Part shown: piece by piece, positions 1 through 47,828 of the stretch
Layout: the number at the start of each line of letters is the position of its first letter
Position numbering within the stretch: the stretch's first letter is position 1
Source of the DNA: Jiangella alkaliphila
GTDB taxonomy: Bacteria > Actinomycetota > Actinomycetes > Jiangellales > Jiangellaceae
Direction of reading: 5' to 3'
DNA: 64,000 nt
NCBI RefSeq assembly: GCF_900105925.1
Contig: NZ_LT629791.1
Span: 4,186,001 to 4,250,000 of the forward strand
The notes under the pieces: generated by a model
What the model saw: the letters and a program-made list of their open reading frames with translations, nothing else
Databases searched by the model: none
What the model was told of the DNA's origin: nothing
Program-made: the position numbers and the translations under genes

Positions 1-270
1 GCCGAGGATCCAGCCGCCGCCGTGGACGTACAGCACCGCGGGCAGCGGCCCGCCTGCGCCGGCAGGCCGGACGAGGCGCACGCGGACGTCACCGACGTCG
101 GCGGGGACGGTGATCCACTTCTCGTCGACGTCGGGCAGCTCGACGGGCGCGGCCTGGACGTCGTCGAGCACCTTGCGGGCGCCCTCGGGTCCGCGCTCGT
201 ACAGCGGGGGCGGGGTGGCGGCGGCGTCGGCGAATGCCTGAGCGGCCGGTTCGAGGACGGGGTTGCTCAT
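1..270 (-). CDS. alpha/beta hydrolase, N-terminal part (cut by window edge)
   Basis: The first 90 codons read leftwards from an ATG at 270 and run off the window. Near the edge the frame contains a VLYVHGGGW segment, the oxyanion-hole motif of hormone-sensitive-lipase-type esterases (alpha/beta hydrolase fold 3). The Gly-x-Ser nucleophile and the rest of the triad lie outside the window, so activity and substrate cannot be judged. The gene sits 29 bp behind the stop of the ECF sigma gene, on the same strand. It has its own TGTCACG-N16-GGTC element inside the 3' end of that sigma gene, so it is probably a target of the sigma factor rather than only read-through. Confidence 0.85.
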   Translation of the reverse strand, partial: MSNPVLEPAAQAFADAAATPPPLYERGPEGARKVLDDVQAAPVELPDVDEKWITVPADVGDVRVRLVRPAGAGGPLPAVLYVHGGGWILG

Positions 271-299
271 GGCTCTGTGCCCTTCTGCGAGAGATCGGT

Positions 300-1001
300 T
301 CACCGCGTACGACCGGGCAGCGGTGCGGGGCGTGACACCCGCGGGGCGTCGCGCCGTCCGCTTTCGACGGCGGCCTCCGAGACGAGGACGCCCTCCAGCA
401 CGGTGAGGTCGCCGGCCCGGGCGGCCGCGAGGAACGCCTCGACGAGGCGCCGCCGGCCGGCCGGGTCGACCGGCGCCGTCCGCCCGGACGAGAGCCGCTG
501 CCGCGCGCGCCGTACCAGCTGCCGGGCGTGGGCGACGCGGAGCTGCAGCACGTCGGAGATCCGGCGGTACGGGTAGGCGAACCCCTCGCGCAGCACGTAC
601 GCCGCCCGCTCGGCCGGCGTCAGACGTTCCATCAGCAGCTGGACCGCCAGCTCCACCGCCTCGCGCCGCTCCGCCTGGACGTCGGGGCCGTTCCGGTCGT
701 CGGGCGACTCCGGCGGCTCCGGCAACTCCGGGCCGACGTCCAGCTCGTGCCGCCTCCGGGCGGACTGGCGGACGTTGATGGCCAGCCGGACCACCGTGGT
801 GGAGAGGAACGCCCCGTGGTCGAGGACGACCGTCCGGTCGGTGCGCTGCCACCGGATCCAGGCTTCCTGCACGACGTCCTCCGCCTCGGGGGCGCTGCCG
901 AGGACCCGGTACGCGATCGTGAACAACCGCGGCCGCTGCCCCATGAAGATCGACGTCGCCCGGTCCAGGTCCCGACCGGCCTCCAGCAGCTGCGTGTCCA
1001 C
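300..1001 (-). CDS. ECF sigma factor (SigJ/ECF41-like) with truncated SnoaL tail
   Basis: 233-aa sigma-70 family protein. Region 2 is visible early (RPRLFTIAYRVLGSAPEAEDV, followed by QEAWIRW), an LPEP-type linker lies in the middle, and region 4 follows (LTPAERAAYVLREGF, then a helix-turn-helix ending VRRARQRL). SigJ/ECF41 proteins normally carry about 110 residues of SnoaL-like domain after region 4; here only about 45 residues remain, lacking the DGGGK and NPDKL motifs, so the domain is incomplete. I chose the GTG at 1001 because GGGGAGG lies 6 nt upstream; the open frame extends to 1127 without such support. Three neighbouring genes carry a shared ECF-like promoter. No such promoter is visible upstream of the sigma gene itself, and no anti-sigma gene is adjacent. 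Confidence 0.85.
   Translation of the reverse strand: MDTQLLEAGRDLDRATSIFMGQRPRLFTIAYRVLGSAPEAEDVVQEAWIRWQRTDRTVVLDHGAFLSTTVVRLAINVRQSARRRHELDVGPELPEPPESPDDRNGPDVQAERREAVELAVQLLMERLTPAERAAYVLREGFAYPYRRISDVLQLRVAHARQLVRRARQRLSSGRTAPVDPAGRRRLVEAFLAAARAGDLTVLEGVLVSEAAVESGRRDAPRVSRPAPLPGRTR
311..337 (-). promoter_or_regulatory. ECF-type promoter for the hydrolase at 270
   Basis: On the minus strand TGTCACG (337-331) is followed after exactly 16 nt by GGTC (314-311), about 40 nt before the ATG. The -35 matches the published ECF41 element TGTCACA with one change; the published -10 is CGTC. The same pair with the same spacing precedes two other nearby genes (1132-1158 and 1854-1880). Confidence 0.6.
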
Positions 1002-36465: not shown

Positions 36466-36470
36466 TCATC

Positions 36471-36699
36471 GGCGATTGCTGGCGCCCTGGAGCCTGTTGC
36501 TGAATGAGGCTCCGTCCAGGCGAGGTGGGGGGAACAACGCGAAAACGGGCTGAAAATAGGCCCAAGTGGAGGGCCCTTGATCAAATGGCGAAAGCCCACC
36601 TCGCTGACCAGCGCCTTTGCAGCGGCCAAGTTGCCCCGTGGATGAACATCGTTCTCATCTTTCAAAAAGCAACAGGCTCCCTGACACCAGCGATCGCCG
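36471..36699 (+). repeat. direct repeat unit, copy 1
   Basis: 229 bp, near-identical to 37104-37333. One G/A run differs by a base and a few positions differ (for example GCGCCCTGG against GCGCTCTGG). Confidence 0.85.
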
Positions 36700-36776
36700 G
36701 TGACCGGTGGTGTCCACAGGGGCGGGCAAGGGGTGGTCGGCTGCCGAGCGCTGAGTGGGCCGGTGGTGGTCTACTA

Positions 36777-37051: not shown

Positions 37052-37103
37052 TGACCGGTGGTGGTCGCCTGGTGCAGCCAGCCTGTGGACAGTCAGGACT
37101 ACC

Positions 37104-37333
37104 GGCGATTGCTGGCGCTCTGGAGCCTGTTGCTGAATGAGGCTCCGTCCAGGCGAGGTGGGGGGAAACAACGCGAAAACGGGCTGAAAATAGGCCCAAG
37201 TGGAGGGCCCTTGATCAAATGGCGAAAGCCCACCTCGCTGACCAGCGCCTTTGCAGCGGCCAAGTTGCCCCGTGGATGAACATCGTTCTCATCTTTCAAA
37301 AAGCAACAGGCTCTCTGACACCAGCGATCGCCG
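37104..37333 (+). repeat. direct repeat unit, copy 2
   Basis: 230 bp, same orientation as copy 1 at an offset of 633-634 bp. It ends just before the stop of the siderophore-interacting protein gene. Confidence 0.85.
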
Positions 37334-37344
37334 ATGATCATGGG

Positions 37345-43973: not shown

Positions 43974-45810
43974 CATGATCATCCAAGAAACGGGGGGTCC
44001 GGGAGCCCGTTGCTCTTTGCGGGTTGTGGGTGGCGGGCGTGGTTCTGGCTGATGGGCGCGGCTTCGTGGGCGTGTCGGGTCGGTGCTGGTGGCCTGTCAG
44101 GCGGTGGCAAGCTGGGTGGTGGTGATGCCGTTGGTGGCGATCTTGAGCAGGTTGGTGACGGCGGCGGCGAGGGAGAGTTCGGCTTGGACGGCGTCGATGC
44201 CGCGGCGGGCGAAGCCACGTCGTAGTCCGCGGCGGTCTTTGAGCCAGCCGTTGGGGGCTTCGACCATCGGGGCGCGGCGGGCGTAGAGGGCGTGCCCGTC
44301 GTCGGTGCGCAGCCGGTGGTCCATCTGTTCGCGGGTGGTGGCGTCGGGTGGTGGTGGGCCGGTGGCCGGGTCGGTGGCGGCGGCCTGGTTCAGGTCGCGT
44401 CGGGTGGCGTTGGCGATGAGCCGGTCCGGGCCGGGCGCGGTCAGGTTGGCGTGGCTGTCGTAGCCGGCGTCGCCGATCATGGTGCCCACGGCGAGGTCGT
44501 CACGGCCGGTGTGCTCGGCCAGCATGCCGGCGGTGGCGGTGACGTCGTTCATGGTCGGGACGAACTGGTGCACGTCGTTGGCGTCCTGGGTCGCGCGGGC
44601 GGAGATGATGAACCCGTCGGCGCTGGTCGCGGTCTGGCAGTTGTAGCCCTGCATCCAGCCGTTGCGGGTCTTGAGCAGCCGGGAGTCCGGGTCGGTCAGG
44701 TTCGCCCGGTGAGCGCTGGTGGTGGTGTCCGGGCCGGGTGTGGCCGGTTCGGCCTGGCGGGCCAGGGCGTCCTGGTAGGCTTGGCGCAGCCGCATCACCG
44801 TGGGGTGGTCGTCCGGTGCCGCGGTCGGGGTGCCGGGCAGCCGGTGTCCTCGTGCGGCCGCAGCGGCGGCCTTGACCTGGTAGGCGTCGAAGCGGGCCTG
44901 GGCGCGGTCGTGTTCACGCTGCCAGCGGGCCCGAGCCACCGCCACCGGGTCCGCGGCCTTCGGTGCCTGCCCCGTCGGAGCCCGGCCGGCCGGGTCACCG
45001 GCCTTCGCGACGTATTCCGCCGCCGCGGCCCGCTCGGCCTCGGTCCCGGCCTGCTCGGCGGCCCGGCGTCGTTCGATCTCGGCCAGCGCCTGGCTGATCC
45101 GCTCACCGCGGCGGGACCGGTCGGTCAGGTCCTCGGGCAGCTCGTCCCCGCGCTGGTCCTCGCCGAACAGCTCATCTTCGGCGTCATCGGTGGCCGCGGC
45201 CCGACCCAGATACTGCCGGGCGAGTTTGCGCAGGTGCGCCTCGGACCGGTTCGCTCCCATCGACGCGTTCGCGGCGATCTTGGTGCCGTCGAAGGCCACC
45301 GTCCCGAGCCGGACCATGCCCAGTTCCGTGGCCAGCAGCAGCGACGCGGTCAGCAGGTCTTCCAGCGCCTGCCCGTGGTCGCGGCGGAACCGGGCCAGCA
45401 CCGTGTGGTCGGGCACATCGGAGGCGCAGATGATCCGGAACGCCACATCGGTGCCGCACAACCGTTCGATCTGCCGCGACGAGGACACCCCGTGCGCCAT
45501 CGCGTAGATGAACAAGGTGAGCAGCATGTCCGGGTCGAAGCCCCGCCGGCCCACCGAGCCGAGCCTGGCCCGGGCGTGGAACGCGGTCGTGTCCATCCGC
45601 TTCACCGCCGCGATCACGAACCACACCAGATGATCACCGGGCAGCCAGTCCGTCATCGACGGCGGCAACAGAAACGCCTGGTCACGATCGACCGGCCGGT
45701 ATCCCTTCGCCATGACCCGCACCATTCCAAACCATGATCAACCAGGCCAGACGCCACGCCGAGACAAAAAGCAACAGGCTCCCGGACGCCCCATTTCTTG
45801 GATGATCATG
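43974..45810 (-). mobile_element. IS1182-like insertion sequence
   Basis: About 1.84 kb. The terminal inverted repeats of about 45 bp start CATGATCATCCAAGAAA at both ends (43974 rightwards, 45810 leftwards), differ at few positions, and enclose a single transposase gene. The inner part of each end, GGAGCC(C/T)GTTGCT, is shared with the MITE-like units at 36.5-37.3 kb. No clear target duplication is visible. The right end supplies the stop codon of the SDR gene. Confidence 0.85.
44097..45713 (-). CDS. IS1182-family transposase
   Basis: 538 aa from the ATG at 45713 (an ATG at 45725 is possible). The N-terminal DUF772 part (YRPVDRDQAFLLPPSMTDWL; DPDMLLTLFIYAMAHGVSSS) is followed by the DDE domain: first Asp in FDGTKIAANAS, second in MIGDAGYDSHAN, Glu in PMVEAPNGWLKDRRGL. 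A long charged insertion lies between the first and second catalytic parts. The frame is intact, so the element may still be active. Confidence 0.93.
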   Translation of the reverse strand: MAKGYRPVDRDQAFLLPPSMTDWLPGDHLVWFVIAAVKRMDTTAFHARARLGSVGRRGFDPDMLLTLFIYAMAHGVSSSRQIERLCGTDVAFRIICASDVPDHTVLARFRRDHGQALEDLLTASLLLATELGMVRLGTVAFDGTKIAANASMGANRSEAHLRKLARQYLGRAAATDDAEDELFGEDQRGDELPEDLTDRSRRGERISQALAEIERRRAAEQAGTEAERAAAAEYVAKAGDPAGRAPTGQAPKAADPVAVARARWQREHDRAQARFDAYQVKAAAAAARGHRLPGTPTAAPDDHPTVMRLRQAYQDALARQAEPATPGPDTTTSAHRANLTDPDSRLLKTRNGWMQGYNCQTATSADGFIISARATQDANDVHQFVPTMNDVTATAGMLAEHTGRDDLAVGTMIGDAGYDSHANLTAPGPDRLIANATRRDLNQAAATDPATGPPPPDATTREQMDHRLRTDDGHALYARRAPMVEAPNGWLKDRRGLRRGFARRGIDAVQAELSLAAAVTNLLKIATNGITTTQLATA

Positions 45811-46645
45811 CTCCAGTCGGGGTGGAGGTGTTGGCGAGAGCGGCGATCCGGTCGTCGTCGGCCTCGCTTCGCAGTTCGATGCCACCGGCCAGCCAGCCGC
45901 CGTCGATGGTGAAGACGCTGCCGGTGATGAACGAGGCGTTCTCGCCGGCCAGGAACGCGACCAGGTGGGCGACCTCGTCGGCCTGCCCGGGCCGGCCCAG
46001 CGGGAACCGGCTGCTGACGTCGAGCTCCTCGCCCATCCTCCGTAGCAGCTCGTTGCTGGCGATGAAGCCCGGGCAGATCGCGTTGACCCGGATTCCCACC
46101 GGCCCCAGCTCCAGTGCGGCCGACTTCACCAGCCCGATCACGCCGTGCTTGGACGCGGAGTACGCCGCCGACATCCGCACACCGGTCAGTCCTGCCGCTG
46201 ACGCCGTGACCACGACGGAGCCACCGCCCGCGGCGCGCATCGCCTGTCCCGCCGTCTGCAGACCGAGCAGCACACCACGCAGATTCACCGCCATCGTGTG
46301 GTCCCACTCCTCCAGCGGGTAGTCCAGGACGCCGGCCCAGTGCCCCGTCGCGGCGTTGAGGTGCGCGATGTCCACGGCGCCGTAGCGGGCCACCGTCTCG
46401 CGCACCATCGCCGCGTTGTCCTCCGGCGACGCCACGTCGACGCGCAGCCCGAAGGCCTCGCCGCCCGCGGCCGTGATCCGCTCGGCCGTCCGCTCGACGC
46501 TGTCGGCACGACGTCCGGCGCAGCACACCCGCGCGCCCAGCGCTGCCAGCGTCACCGCCGTCGCCGCGCCGATTCCGGACCCGGACCCGGCCCCGGTCAC
46601 GACCGCGACCCGTCCCGCCAGCGAGGCCGGCCCTGGCTCCGTCAT
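45806..46645 (-). CDS. short-chain dehydrogenase/reductase, stop codon supplied by the IS end
   Basis: 279 aa. VAVVTGAGSGSGIGAATAVT is the TGxxxGxG cofactor motif, YSASKHG (Y-x-x-x-K) the catalytic pair with Ser in ASAAGL, and FTIDGGW the family ending. The reading frame continues for about 25 residues past the usual end and stops at a TGA inside the IS terminal ATGATCAT, so the natural C-terminus was changed by insertion. ATG at 46645 with GGAG 7 nt upstream; a TGTCACA-N16-CATC promoter precedes it. It fits the oxidoreductase partner of ECF41 sigma factors. Confidence 0.88.
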   Translation of the reverse strand: MTEPGPASLAGRVAVVTGAGSGSGIGAATAVTLAALGARVCCAGRRADSVERTAERITAAGGEAFGLRVDVASPEDNAAMVRETVARYGAVDIAHLNAATGHWAGVLDYPLEEWDHTMAVNLRGVLLGLQTAGQAMRAAGGGSVVVTASAAGLTGVRMSAAYSASKHGVIGLVKSAALELGPVGIRVNAICPGFIASNELLRRMGEELDVSSRFPLGRPGQADEVAHLVAFLAGENASFITGSVFTIDGGWLAGGIELRSEADDDRIAALANTSTPTGA

Positions 46646-46685
46646 CCGTCACTCCGCTCGTCGCCGTTGTCATTGCCGGTCATGA

Positions 46686-46712
46686 GATGCCCGCACCCGG
46701 CCGGGTGTGACA
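46686..46712 (-). promoter_or_regulatory. ECF41-type promoter for the SDR gene
   Basis: Minus-strand TGTCACA (46712-46706), exactly 16 nt, CATC (46689-46686), about 40 nt before the ATG. The -35 is identical to the published ECF41 consensus; -10 CATC differs by one base from CGTC. Confidence 0.75.
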
Positions 46713-46748
46713 GGCACGGCACTGTGACGCGGGTCATCGCCGCGGTGA

Positions 46749-46775
46749 TGTCACAAACCGATGGCGCGCGGCATC
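46749..46775 (+). promoter_or_regulatory. ECF41-type promoter for the sigma factor gene
   Basis: TGTCACA (46749-46755), 16 nt, CATC (46772-46775), 38 nt before the ATG at 46814. It mirrors the promoter of the divergent SDR gene exactly, indicating autoregulation and co-regulation. Confidence 0.75.
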
Positions 46776-46813
46776 TTGTGAGTGATGGCGAAGCGCGGCG
46801 AGACGGGAGACCC

Positions 46814-47710
46814 ATGGGCGACGACGGCGGGGCGGACGCCGCGACCGAGGTGTTCGTCGCCCACCGCAACCTGCTCTTCACCGTCGCCTATGAGCTGCTC
46901 GGCTCGGCCGCCGACGCGGAGGACGTGCTGCAGGAGACGTGGCTGCGGTGGGCCGGCGTCGACCTGAGCACGGTGCGGGACCAGCGCGCCTATCTGGTCC
47001 GGATCGCCGCCCGGCAGGCGCTCGCCCGGCTGCGCGTCGTCGGCCGGCGCAAGGAGACCTATATCGGCCCGTGGCTGCCCGAGCCGCTGCTGACCGCGCC
47101 CGACGTCGCCGACGACGTCGAGCTGGCGGATAGCCTGTCGATGGCGATGCTGCTGGTCCTGGAGACGCTCACCCCGACTGAGCGGGCCGTGTTCGTGCTG
47201 CGCGACGTGTTCGACCTGGCCTACGACGAGATCGCTGCGGCCGTCGACAAGAACCCCGCCGCGGTGCGCCAGATCGCCCACCGCGCGCGGGCGCACGTCG
47301 CCGCGCGCCGGCCGCGCGGAACGGTCAGCTCCGCCGAGACCCGGGCCGCGCTCGCAGCCTTCCAGCGTGCGATCGAGACGGGCGACCTGCGGATCCTGTT
47401 CGACATCCTCGCGCCGGACGTCGTCGCTATGAGCGACGGCGGCGGCGTCAAGCAGTCGATGCAGCGGCCCACGGTGGGTGCTGACAAGGTGGCTCGCCTG
47501 TGGGCGACCGGCCTGAACCGGCTCGGTGCCGCCATGTCGGCCGAGCCGGCGCAGGTCAACGGCTACCCCGGCCTGATCGTGCGGGTCGACGGCGAGCTCG
47601 ACGGCGTCGTCGCGGTGCGGGTCGAGGACGGCCTCGTCACCGGGCTCTACTACGTGCGCAACCCCGACAAGCTCTCGCGGGTGGAGCGCGAGACCGCGGT
47701 GAGCCGCTGA
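46814..47710 (+). CDS. ECF41-type sigma factor (SigJ-like) with full SnoaL domain
   Basis: 298 aa. Region 2 (FTVAYELLGSAADAEDVLQE, then TWLRWAG), the WLPEPLL linker, region 4 (LTPTERAVFVLRDVFDLAYD and the HTH ending RQIAHRARAHV) and a SnoaL-like C-terminal domain with MSDGGGVK and the final YYVRNPDKL are all present. These three motifs define ECF41. The C-terminal domain replaces an anti-sigma factor and tunes activity. ATG at 46814 with GGGAG upstream. Divergent from its likely target, the SDR gene. Confidence 0.93.
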   Translation: MGDDGGADAATEVFVAHRNLLFTVAYELLGSAADAEDVLQETWLRWAGVDLSTVRDQRAYLVRIAARQALARLRVVGRRKETYIGPWLPEPLLTAPDVADDVELADSLSMAMLLVLETLTPTERAVFVLRDVFDLAYDEIAAAVDKNPAAVRQIAHRARAHVAARRPRGTVSSAETRAALAAFQRAIETGDLRILFDILAPDVVAMSDGGGVKQSMQRPTVGADKVARLWATGLNRLGAAMSAEPAQVNGYPGLIVRVDGELDGVVAVRVEDGLVTGLYYVRNPDKLSRVERETAVSR

Positions 47711-47828
47711 AACAGCCATCGGCCGCCGAACCATCGGCCACCTGGCAGATGTTCTGGACGGCGGGCTGGTCGACGCTGGTCGCAGCGACCTCGAGAACCC
47801 GTCTCGAGTCCGTGCCAAGGAGCATCCG

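Follow-up and report, generated by a model that had tools for sequence, protein, structure and literature searches.

The spacer between a short-chain dehydrogenase/reductase (SDR) gene and a divergent ECF41 sigma factor gene of the actinomycete Jiangella alkaliphila, found in a 64,000-nucleotide stretch of its genome (the window), contains two mirror-image ECF41 promoters and, midway between their -35 elements, a 16-bp palindrome that resembles actinobacterial Crp operators. From the sequence evidence we lean towards the view that this is an autoregulatory two-way ECF41 promoter, which would be co-controlled by a centrally bound dimer of the Crp type. The recurrence of the central palindrome in many relatives suggests that a second regulator may help to work the switch. 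Three features make the locus worth following up, namely the conserved mid-promoter palindrome, its helical phasing and the exchangeability of the driven gene.

The sigma factor (298 aa; 46814..47710, plus strand) scores above the cut-offs of two family models, TIGR02957 (357.1 bits against 323.25) and the SigJ model NF007214 (302.3 against 271), displays the Pfam domains Sigma70_r2 (3e-11) and Sigma70_r4_2 (6.1e-13), and aligns to SigJ (PDB 5xe7) over residues 12-288 (6.3e-43). The family models and the SigJ alignment together bear out its proposed membership of ECF41. ECF41 proteins carry a SnoaL-like C-terminal extension of about 100 aa; that of the present protein can be aligned to 5xe7 through residue 288, and no Pfam SnoaL domain is detected in the protein at E <= 0.001. 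An earlier note, made from the sequence alone, had credited the protein with three ECF41 motifs: both WLPEP, in the linker that joins regions 2 and 4, and NPDKL are indeed present in the translated protein, and the motif described as DGGGK-like reads DGGGVK. WLPEP is a named feature of ECF41 (PMC3426412); the names DGGGK-like and NPDKL were not found in a term search of the main text of that article. The protein has in common with the published group (PMC3426412; SigJ of M. tuberculosis) the sigma family, the WLPEP linker and the long C-terminal extension. ECF41 genes are expected to have no anti-sigma gene as a neighbour but one of the COE type (carboxymuconolactone decarboxylase, oxidoreductase or epimerase); a Pfam scan of the seven neighbouring proteins revealed no anti-sigma family among them. 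The driven gene (45806..46645, minus strand) codes for an SDR of 279 aa, with Pfam matches to adh_short_C2 (5.1e-57) and adh_short (7.9e-48).

The spacer separating the two genes spans 168 bp (46646-46813). The promoter on the SDR side, TGTCACACCCGGCCGGGTGCGGGCATC (46712-46686, minus strand), has the -35 element TGTCACA at 46706..46712 and the -10 element CATC at 46686..46689; the promoter on the sigma side, TGTCACAAACCGATGGCGCGCGGCATC (46749-46775, plus strand), has its TGTCACA at 46749..46755 and its CATC at 46772..46775. Both are exact instances of TGTCACA-N16-CATC, just as had been claimed for the two strands of this spacer, and their -35 elements are identical to that published for ECF41. 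They are placed back to back with the -35 elements facing inwards and 36 bp between these, and the ends of the CATC elements lie 40 nt (SDR) and 38 nt (sigma) from the respective ATG codons. Shuffled versions of the window are expected to hold 0.07 matches to TGTCACA-N14..18-CATC, and two matches were reached in 1 of 100 shuffles. Across the whole 7.7-Mb genome the pattern TGTCACA-N15..17-CRTC occurs 23 times as against 4 for its reverse, and the exact TGTCACA-N16-CATC occurs 4 times, two of them forming this pair and two its counterpart at a second copy of the locus. The window promoters are very likely real, and autoregulation by the sigma factor is predicted. It is conceivable that the mirrored motifs are products of chance or relics and that the genes start elsewhere. 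We regard this as highly improbable in view of the confinement of all four exact genomic copies to the two copies of this locus, the identity of the spacer between those copies although their SDR genes differ at 31 positions, and the recurrence of the same architecture beside ECF41 genes in many genera.

The cassette comprising the SDR gene, the two-way promoter and the sigma factor gene (45854..47779) has its second copy near 5.651 Mb in the same genome (locus L009), with 97.7% identity over 1.93 kb. The differences between the copies number 31 in the SDR gene, 6 in the sigma gene and none in the 168 bp of the spacer. Since the spacers are identical and the sigma proteins 99% identical, the same sigma factors should control both copies, making them one regulon with two SDR and two sigma genes. 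Sigma orthologues of 69-77% identity are encoded in seven congeneric genomes; a tblastn search with the SDR in the stretches around these sigma genes gave 32% identity at best, and the best SDR match outside this genome, among 20 other genomes searched at E <= 1e-40, had 45% identity. An IS1182-type transposase gene (44097-45725; NCBIfam score 266, just below the cut-off of 270) adjoins the 3' end of the SDR gene, and such a transposase may have moved the cassette.

Much of this architecture is known. Wecke 2012 (PMC3426412) defined the ECF41 group, its motif TGTCACA-n16-CGTC and its divergent gene order. Of 373 loci, 55 were divergent; a promoter preceded the sigma gene in 36 and the target in 41 (Table 4 of that article). 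Hence, we discarded the idea that mirrored promoters are new in themselves: two-sided divergent ECF41 loci were published in 2012 (PMC3426412), the two-way arrangement is known, and the window's pair adds one more member. The -35 element TGTCACA, the 16-bp spacer, the divergent target and, in many loci, promoters on both sides are likewise shared with the published group (PMC3426412). The window departs from it in three respects. Its -10 element is CATC on both sides, whereas the -35 element and the spacing agree exactly with TGTCACA-N16-CGTC. Its driven gene, the neighbour of the sigma gene, codes for a classical SDR-family oxidoreductase, whose domain (adh_short) is outside the Pfam domains listed in PMC3426412. 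Finally, a palindrome lies centrally between its promoters. The activation of ECF41 sigma factors was ascribed in the same work to "some unknown signal" (PMC3426412).

For comparison we assembled 113 loci: the window, 80 named loci with sigma factors 68-80% identical that were picked by protein alone, 7 from the same genus and 25 from scans with DNA patterns; removal of 5 duplicates left 108. By the strict pattern, 58 of the 108 have a promoter on both sides, and these consist of the window, 39 of the 80 named loci, none of the 7 congeneric ones and 18 selected by pattern. On the target side of the 58 loci the -10 element is CATC in 40, CGTC in 13, GATC in 4 and TGTC in 1; on the sigma side it is CGTC in 34, CATC in 10, TGTC in 8 and another form in 6. 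The window is one of 10 loci with CATC on both sides. The CATC that was taken for a departure from the known CGTC is therefore no exception within the subfamily, being its commonest target-side form; variation of the -10 element was already known, because that of B. licheniformis is TGTT and that of R. sphaeroides CGTC (PMC3426412). The second -10 base (target/sigma) is A/G in 30 loci, A/A in 14, G/G in 14 and G/A in none, and among the 40 loci that were not selected by DNA pattern (39 named and the window) A/G stands against G/A as 20 to 0. We rejected the notion of CATC as a private specificity switch, given the A on the target side with G on the sigma side in 30 of 58 loci and the reverse in none; presumably, one sigma factor reads both the CATC and the CGTC forms. 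In many loci conservation extends downstream of the -10 element as GG-CRTC-T-N-GTG, on the target side as GTGTTCGTC.

Scans of wider genome sets differed in their yield. A phylum-wide promoter scan that left out the palindrome (hereafter also the box) was weak, with matches in 6 of 396 genomes, that of the window included, against 2 control matches. A looser pattern, run across the order, matched in 30 of 121 genomes and once in the control; of 30 loci fetched from that run, 24 lie next to an ECF41 relative. A scan for target -35, box and sigma -35 over 393 genomes from the class to which Amycolatopsis xylanica belongs matched in 15 genomes against 0 for the reversed control; an ECF41 gene lies beside 17 of the 18 loci fetched, which are not an independent sample because several are the same as earlier loci.

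The central palindrome of the window, TGTGACGCGGGTCATC (46723..46738), is 10 bp from each -35 element. It represents a 16-bp element with the consensus TGTGACGTGCGCCACC that lies between the -35 elements of related loci, 9-10 bp from each in most loci with the standard gap. We used the named loci to assess this box, because its first half had itself matched the order-scan pattern in some loci. It was recovered in 36 of the 39 named two-promoter loci (p <= 0.006, leaving out one genus at a time, against shuffles of each locus's own spacer), in all 36 at an offset of 9 or 10 bp from the target-side -35. In the remaining 3 the gap is 24 bp, too short to contain the whole element, which there touches or overlaps a -35 element. 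With a weight matrix trained without this locus, the window's own palindrome scores 17.4 (p=0.002) at an offset of 10 and a right-hand gap of 10. The model correlates with its own reverse complement at 0.78, a value reached by 2 of 2000 column permutations. The same model finds no palindrome upstream of the promoter in L034, the nearest row to the window on the sigma tree, in the congeneric L010 and L016, or in L043, L062, L069, L071 and L072. As to the earlier note's proposal of a single shared switch, the two-sided promoters stand and are conserved in relatives, but the description is probably incomplete because of the conserved palindrome midway between both -35 elements.

The placement of the box is informative. 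In 46 of the 58 loci the -35 elements are separated by 33-36 bp, in 3 by 24 bp and in 4 by 43-45 bp, with gaps of 49, 53, 70, 84 and 129 bp found once each. Among the nine changed gaps of up to 60 bp, eight differ from 34 by roughly one or two helical turns (-10, 9, 10, 11 or 19 bp) and one by 15 bp; the three gaps over 60 bp (70, 84 and 129) being left out, the departures are phased at 10.5 bp when compared with uniform ones (p=0.0017, n=9). Four gap classes call for at least 12 changes on a tree of 106 sigma proteins (2 loci with a broken or short sigma translation were dropped), which points to largely separate events, although strong support is confined to 13 of the 103 inner branches. Moreover, in L068, L074 and L041 the box is 9 bp from the target -35 despite a distant sigma promoter, which lies 45, 59 and 104 bp from the box, respectively. 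The helical phasing and the retention of the box 9 bp from the target -35 favour a protein that shares one face of the helix with the polymerase.

These observations also bear on whether the sigma factor works the switch on its own, with the conserved centre having a structural role as a spare -35-like or upstream element. One half of the box, GTCACA, does resemble the -35 TGTCACA; the box is absent from the sigma promoter of L034, the relative nearest to the window; and in the published assays of target promoters only the sigma factor was supplied, expressed from a foreign promoter, the abstract speaking of ECF41-dependent regulation (PMC3426412). However, the palindrome model disfavours the box as a second -35, since it lacks the leading T of that element (the complement A has only 0.10 at position 7) and its other half, GCCACC, makes a poor -35. 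A 16-bp element that is strongly palindromic and keeps a helically phased distance is better accounted for by a dimer, and the fixed 9-bp placement in L068, L074 and L041 likewise speaks against a purely structural centre; accordingly, we give this alternative a rather low probability.

The palindrome resembles the sites of the Crp family. The strongly conserved Crp motif of S. coelicolor is GTG(N)6GNCAC and that of C. glutamicum GTG(N)8CAC (PMC10033298). Of the 58 spacers, 45 contain an exact GTG(N)6GNCAC, whereas shuffles predict 0.26, and 29 of the 39 named loci have it; like the actinobacterial Crp/GlxR operators, the element is a palindrome of the form GTGAC-N4-GYCAC. The candidate site of the window differs from such operators in that it has one mismatch to GTG(N)6GNCAC, with 7 of the 8 specified bases in place and the exact consensus thus missed, and in being set between two putative ECF promoters. 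Among 116 N16 promoters in 85 loci, the exact matches that fall up to 70 bp upstream of a -35 element are concentrated at 9-11 bp from it (47 of 53 on the sigma side, 28 of 29 on the target side); no exact match occurs within 70 bp in 25 of the 85 loci, one of which is the window. A different layout is that of 12 operon-type loci, chosen by a fixed rule, in which the promoter precedes the sigma gene by 1.2-1.5 kb: 9 of these (L038, L058, L059, L060, L066, L077, L079, L081 and L089) have GTGA-N6-[TA]CA ending 3-4 bp upstream of the -35 and 3 are without the site, and they are not independent cases because all 11 in the tree fall in one clade.

The genome of the window itself encodes a close Crp homologue: one protein matches PF13545 at 1.3e-17, and three others just pass the cut-off. 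The best PDB matches of this homologue are the Crp/Fnr-family regulators 3i54 and 3d0s (E about 1e-78), both of which we take to be CRP of M. tuberculosis. We infer that a protein of this family would bind the palindrome and would activate transcription from it. Sites of other palindrome-binding regulators can look similar, and purified Streptomyces Crp failed to shift a promoter in which a site had been predicted (PMC10033298). In the literature searched, a search that was not exhaustive, we found no mention of a Crp-like site in ECF41 promoters; the terms "Crp" and "inverted repeat" do not occur in the main text of PMC3426412, nor does "Crp" in PMC8999054.

The palindrome could also be real and serve some other global dimeric regulator, for example of redox or nitrogen metabolism, by which both promoters would be repressed or activated. 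Redox-type enzymes are the products of many driven genes, as would suit a redox sensor, and a constant box beside changing neighbours indicates some global regulator without singling out Crp. Against this, 45 of 58 spacers contain the published Crp consensus exactly, and the operator of one candidate, Rex (TGTGAA-N4-TTCACA), differs at the conserved C/G pair (model positions 6 and 11). We therefore judge another regulator to be unlikely, if deserving of serious attention.

Under the Crp-type reading that we prefer, RNA polymerase with the ECF41 sigma factor would initiate at both promoters, and the sigma factor would feed back on its own gene while driving that for the enzyme. A Crp-family dimer would bind at the central palindrome, centred 17-18 bp upstream from the first -35 base on either side, and might touch the polymerase at both promoters. 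Two inputs would then be required to operate the switch: the C-terminal domain of the sigma factor would have to release it, and a global signal, for instance cAMP, would have to be present. The phased Crp-like site thus offers a concrete and testable candidate for the second input of ECF41. If true, this would tie the ECF41 sigma group to a global regulator and provide a compact two-way promoter for actinomycete genetics.

The driven gene would, in the same scheme, be exchangeable cargo, in this case an SDR. By sequence signatures it is a homologue of carboxymuconolactone decarboxylase (CMD) in 36 of the 58 loci; the others include an MFS transporter, an FAD-linked oxidase, a DoxX-like protein, an epimerase-type protein, a cytochrome b and SDRs, of which there are three further cases beside the window. 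Pfam scans of ten example partners bear out these families. For the 50 loci whose partner was labelled, the sigma tree requires at least 8 partner switches; the other 8 of the 58 partner genes, which include the window's SDR, carried no label. Extending the argument, we tentatively propose, as a possibility that we would not yet call probable, that actinomycete ECF41 promoters are two-input gates: the central Crp-type dimer would co-activate the sigma gene and the target, requiring both the ligand of the fused domain and a global signal of the cAMP type, and the sigma factor with its two-way promoter would constitute a portable cassette, whose cargo has been swapped in evolution and which has sometimes been duplicated whole.

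The box is not a trait of all ECF41 paralogues, a notion that we rejected, as other sigma relatives of this genome are without it at this spacing. In 5 of the 13 loci of such relatives (L106-L118) a TGTCAC-type promoter lies no more than 480 bp from the start of the sigma gene, and an upstream GTG-N8-CAY is present in L106 alone, at another spacing (22 bp). One of them, L108 (G000:C1 7189868-7189927), is a second, different mirrored pair of ECF41 promoters in the genome of the window, with CGTC elements, -35s 6 bp apart and no box. The window also contains an ECF41-like sigma remnant (264-968, minus strand; 37% identity) with two TGA stops inside.

Repeated loci were observed elsewhere in the sample. 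In one genome, L136 and L145 (G352:C1, 4.230 and 5.313 Mb) present a mirrored CGTC pair together with 687 bp twice at 99.4% identity, and only one of the two has an ECF41 match in the fetched flanks. In another, L190 and L198 (G451:C12, 92317 and 158978) share an identical 48-bp promoter core 67 kb apart, around which 1.1 kb aligns at 85%. Within the window, a 235-bp direct repeat is found at 36470-36703 and 37103-37337, its copies 98.3% identical.
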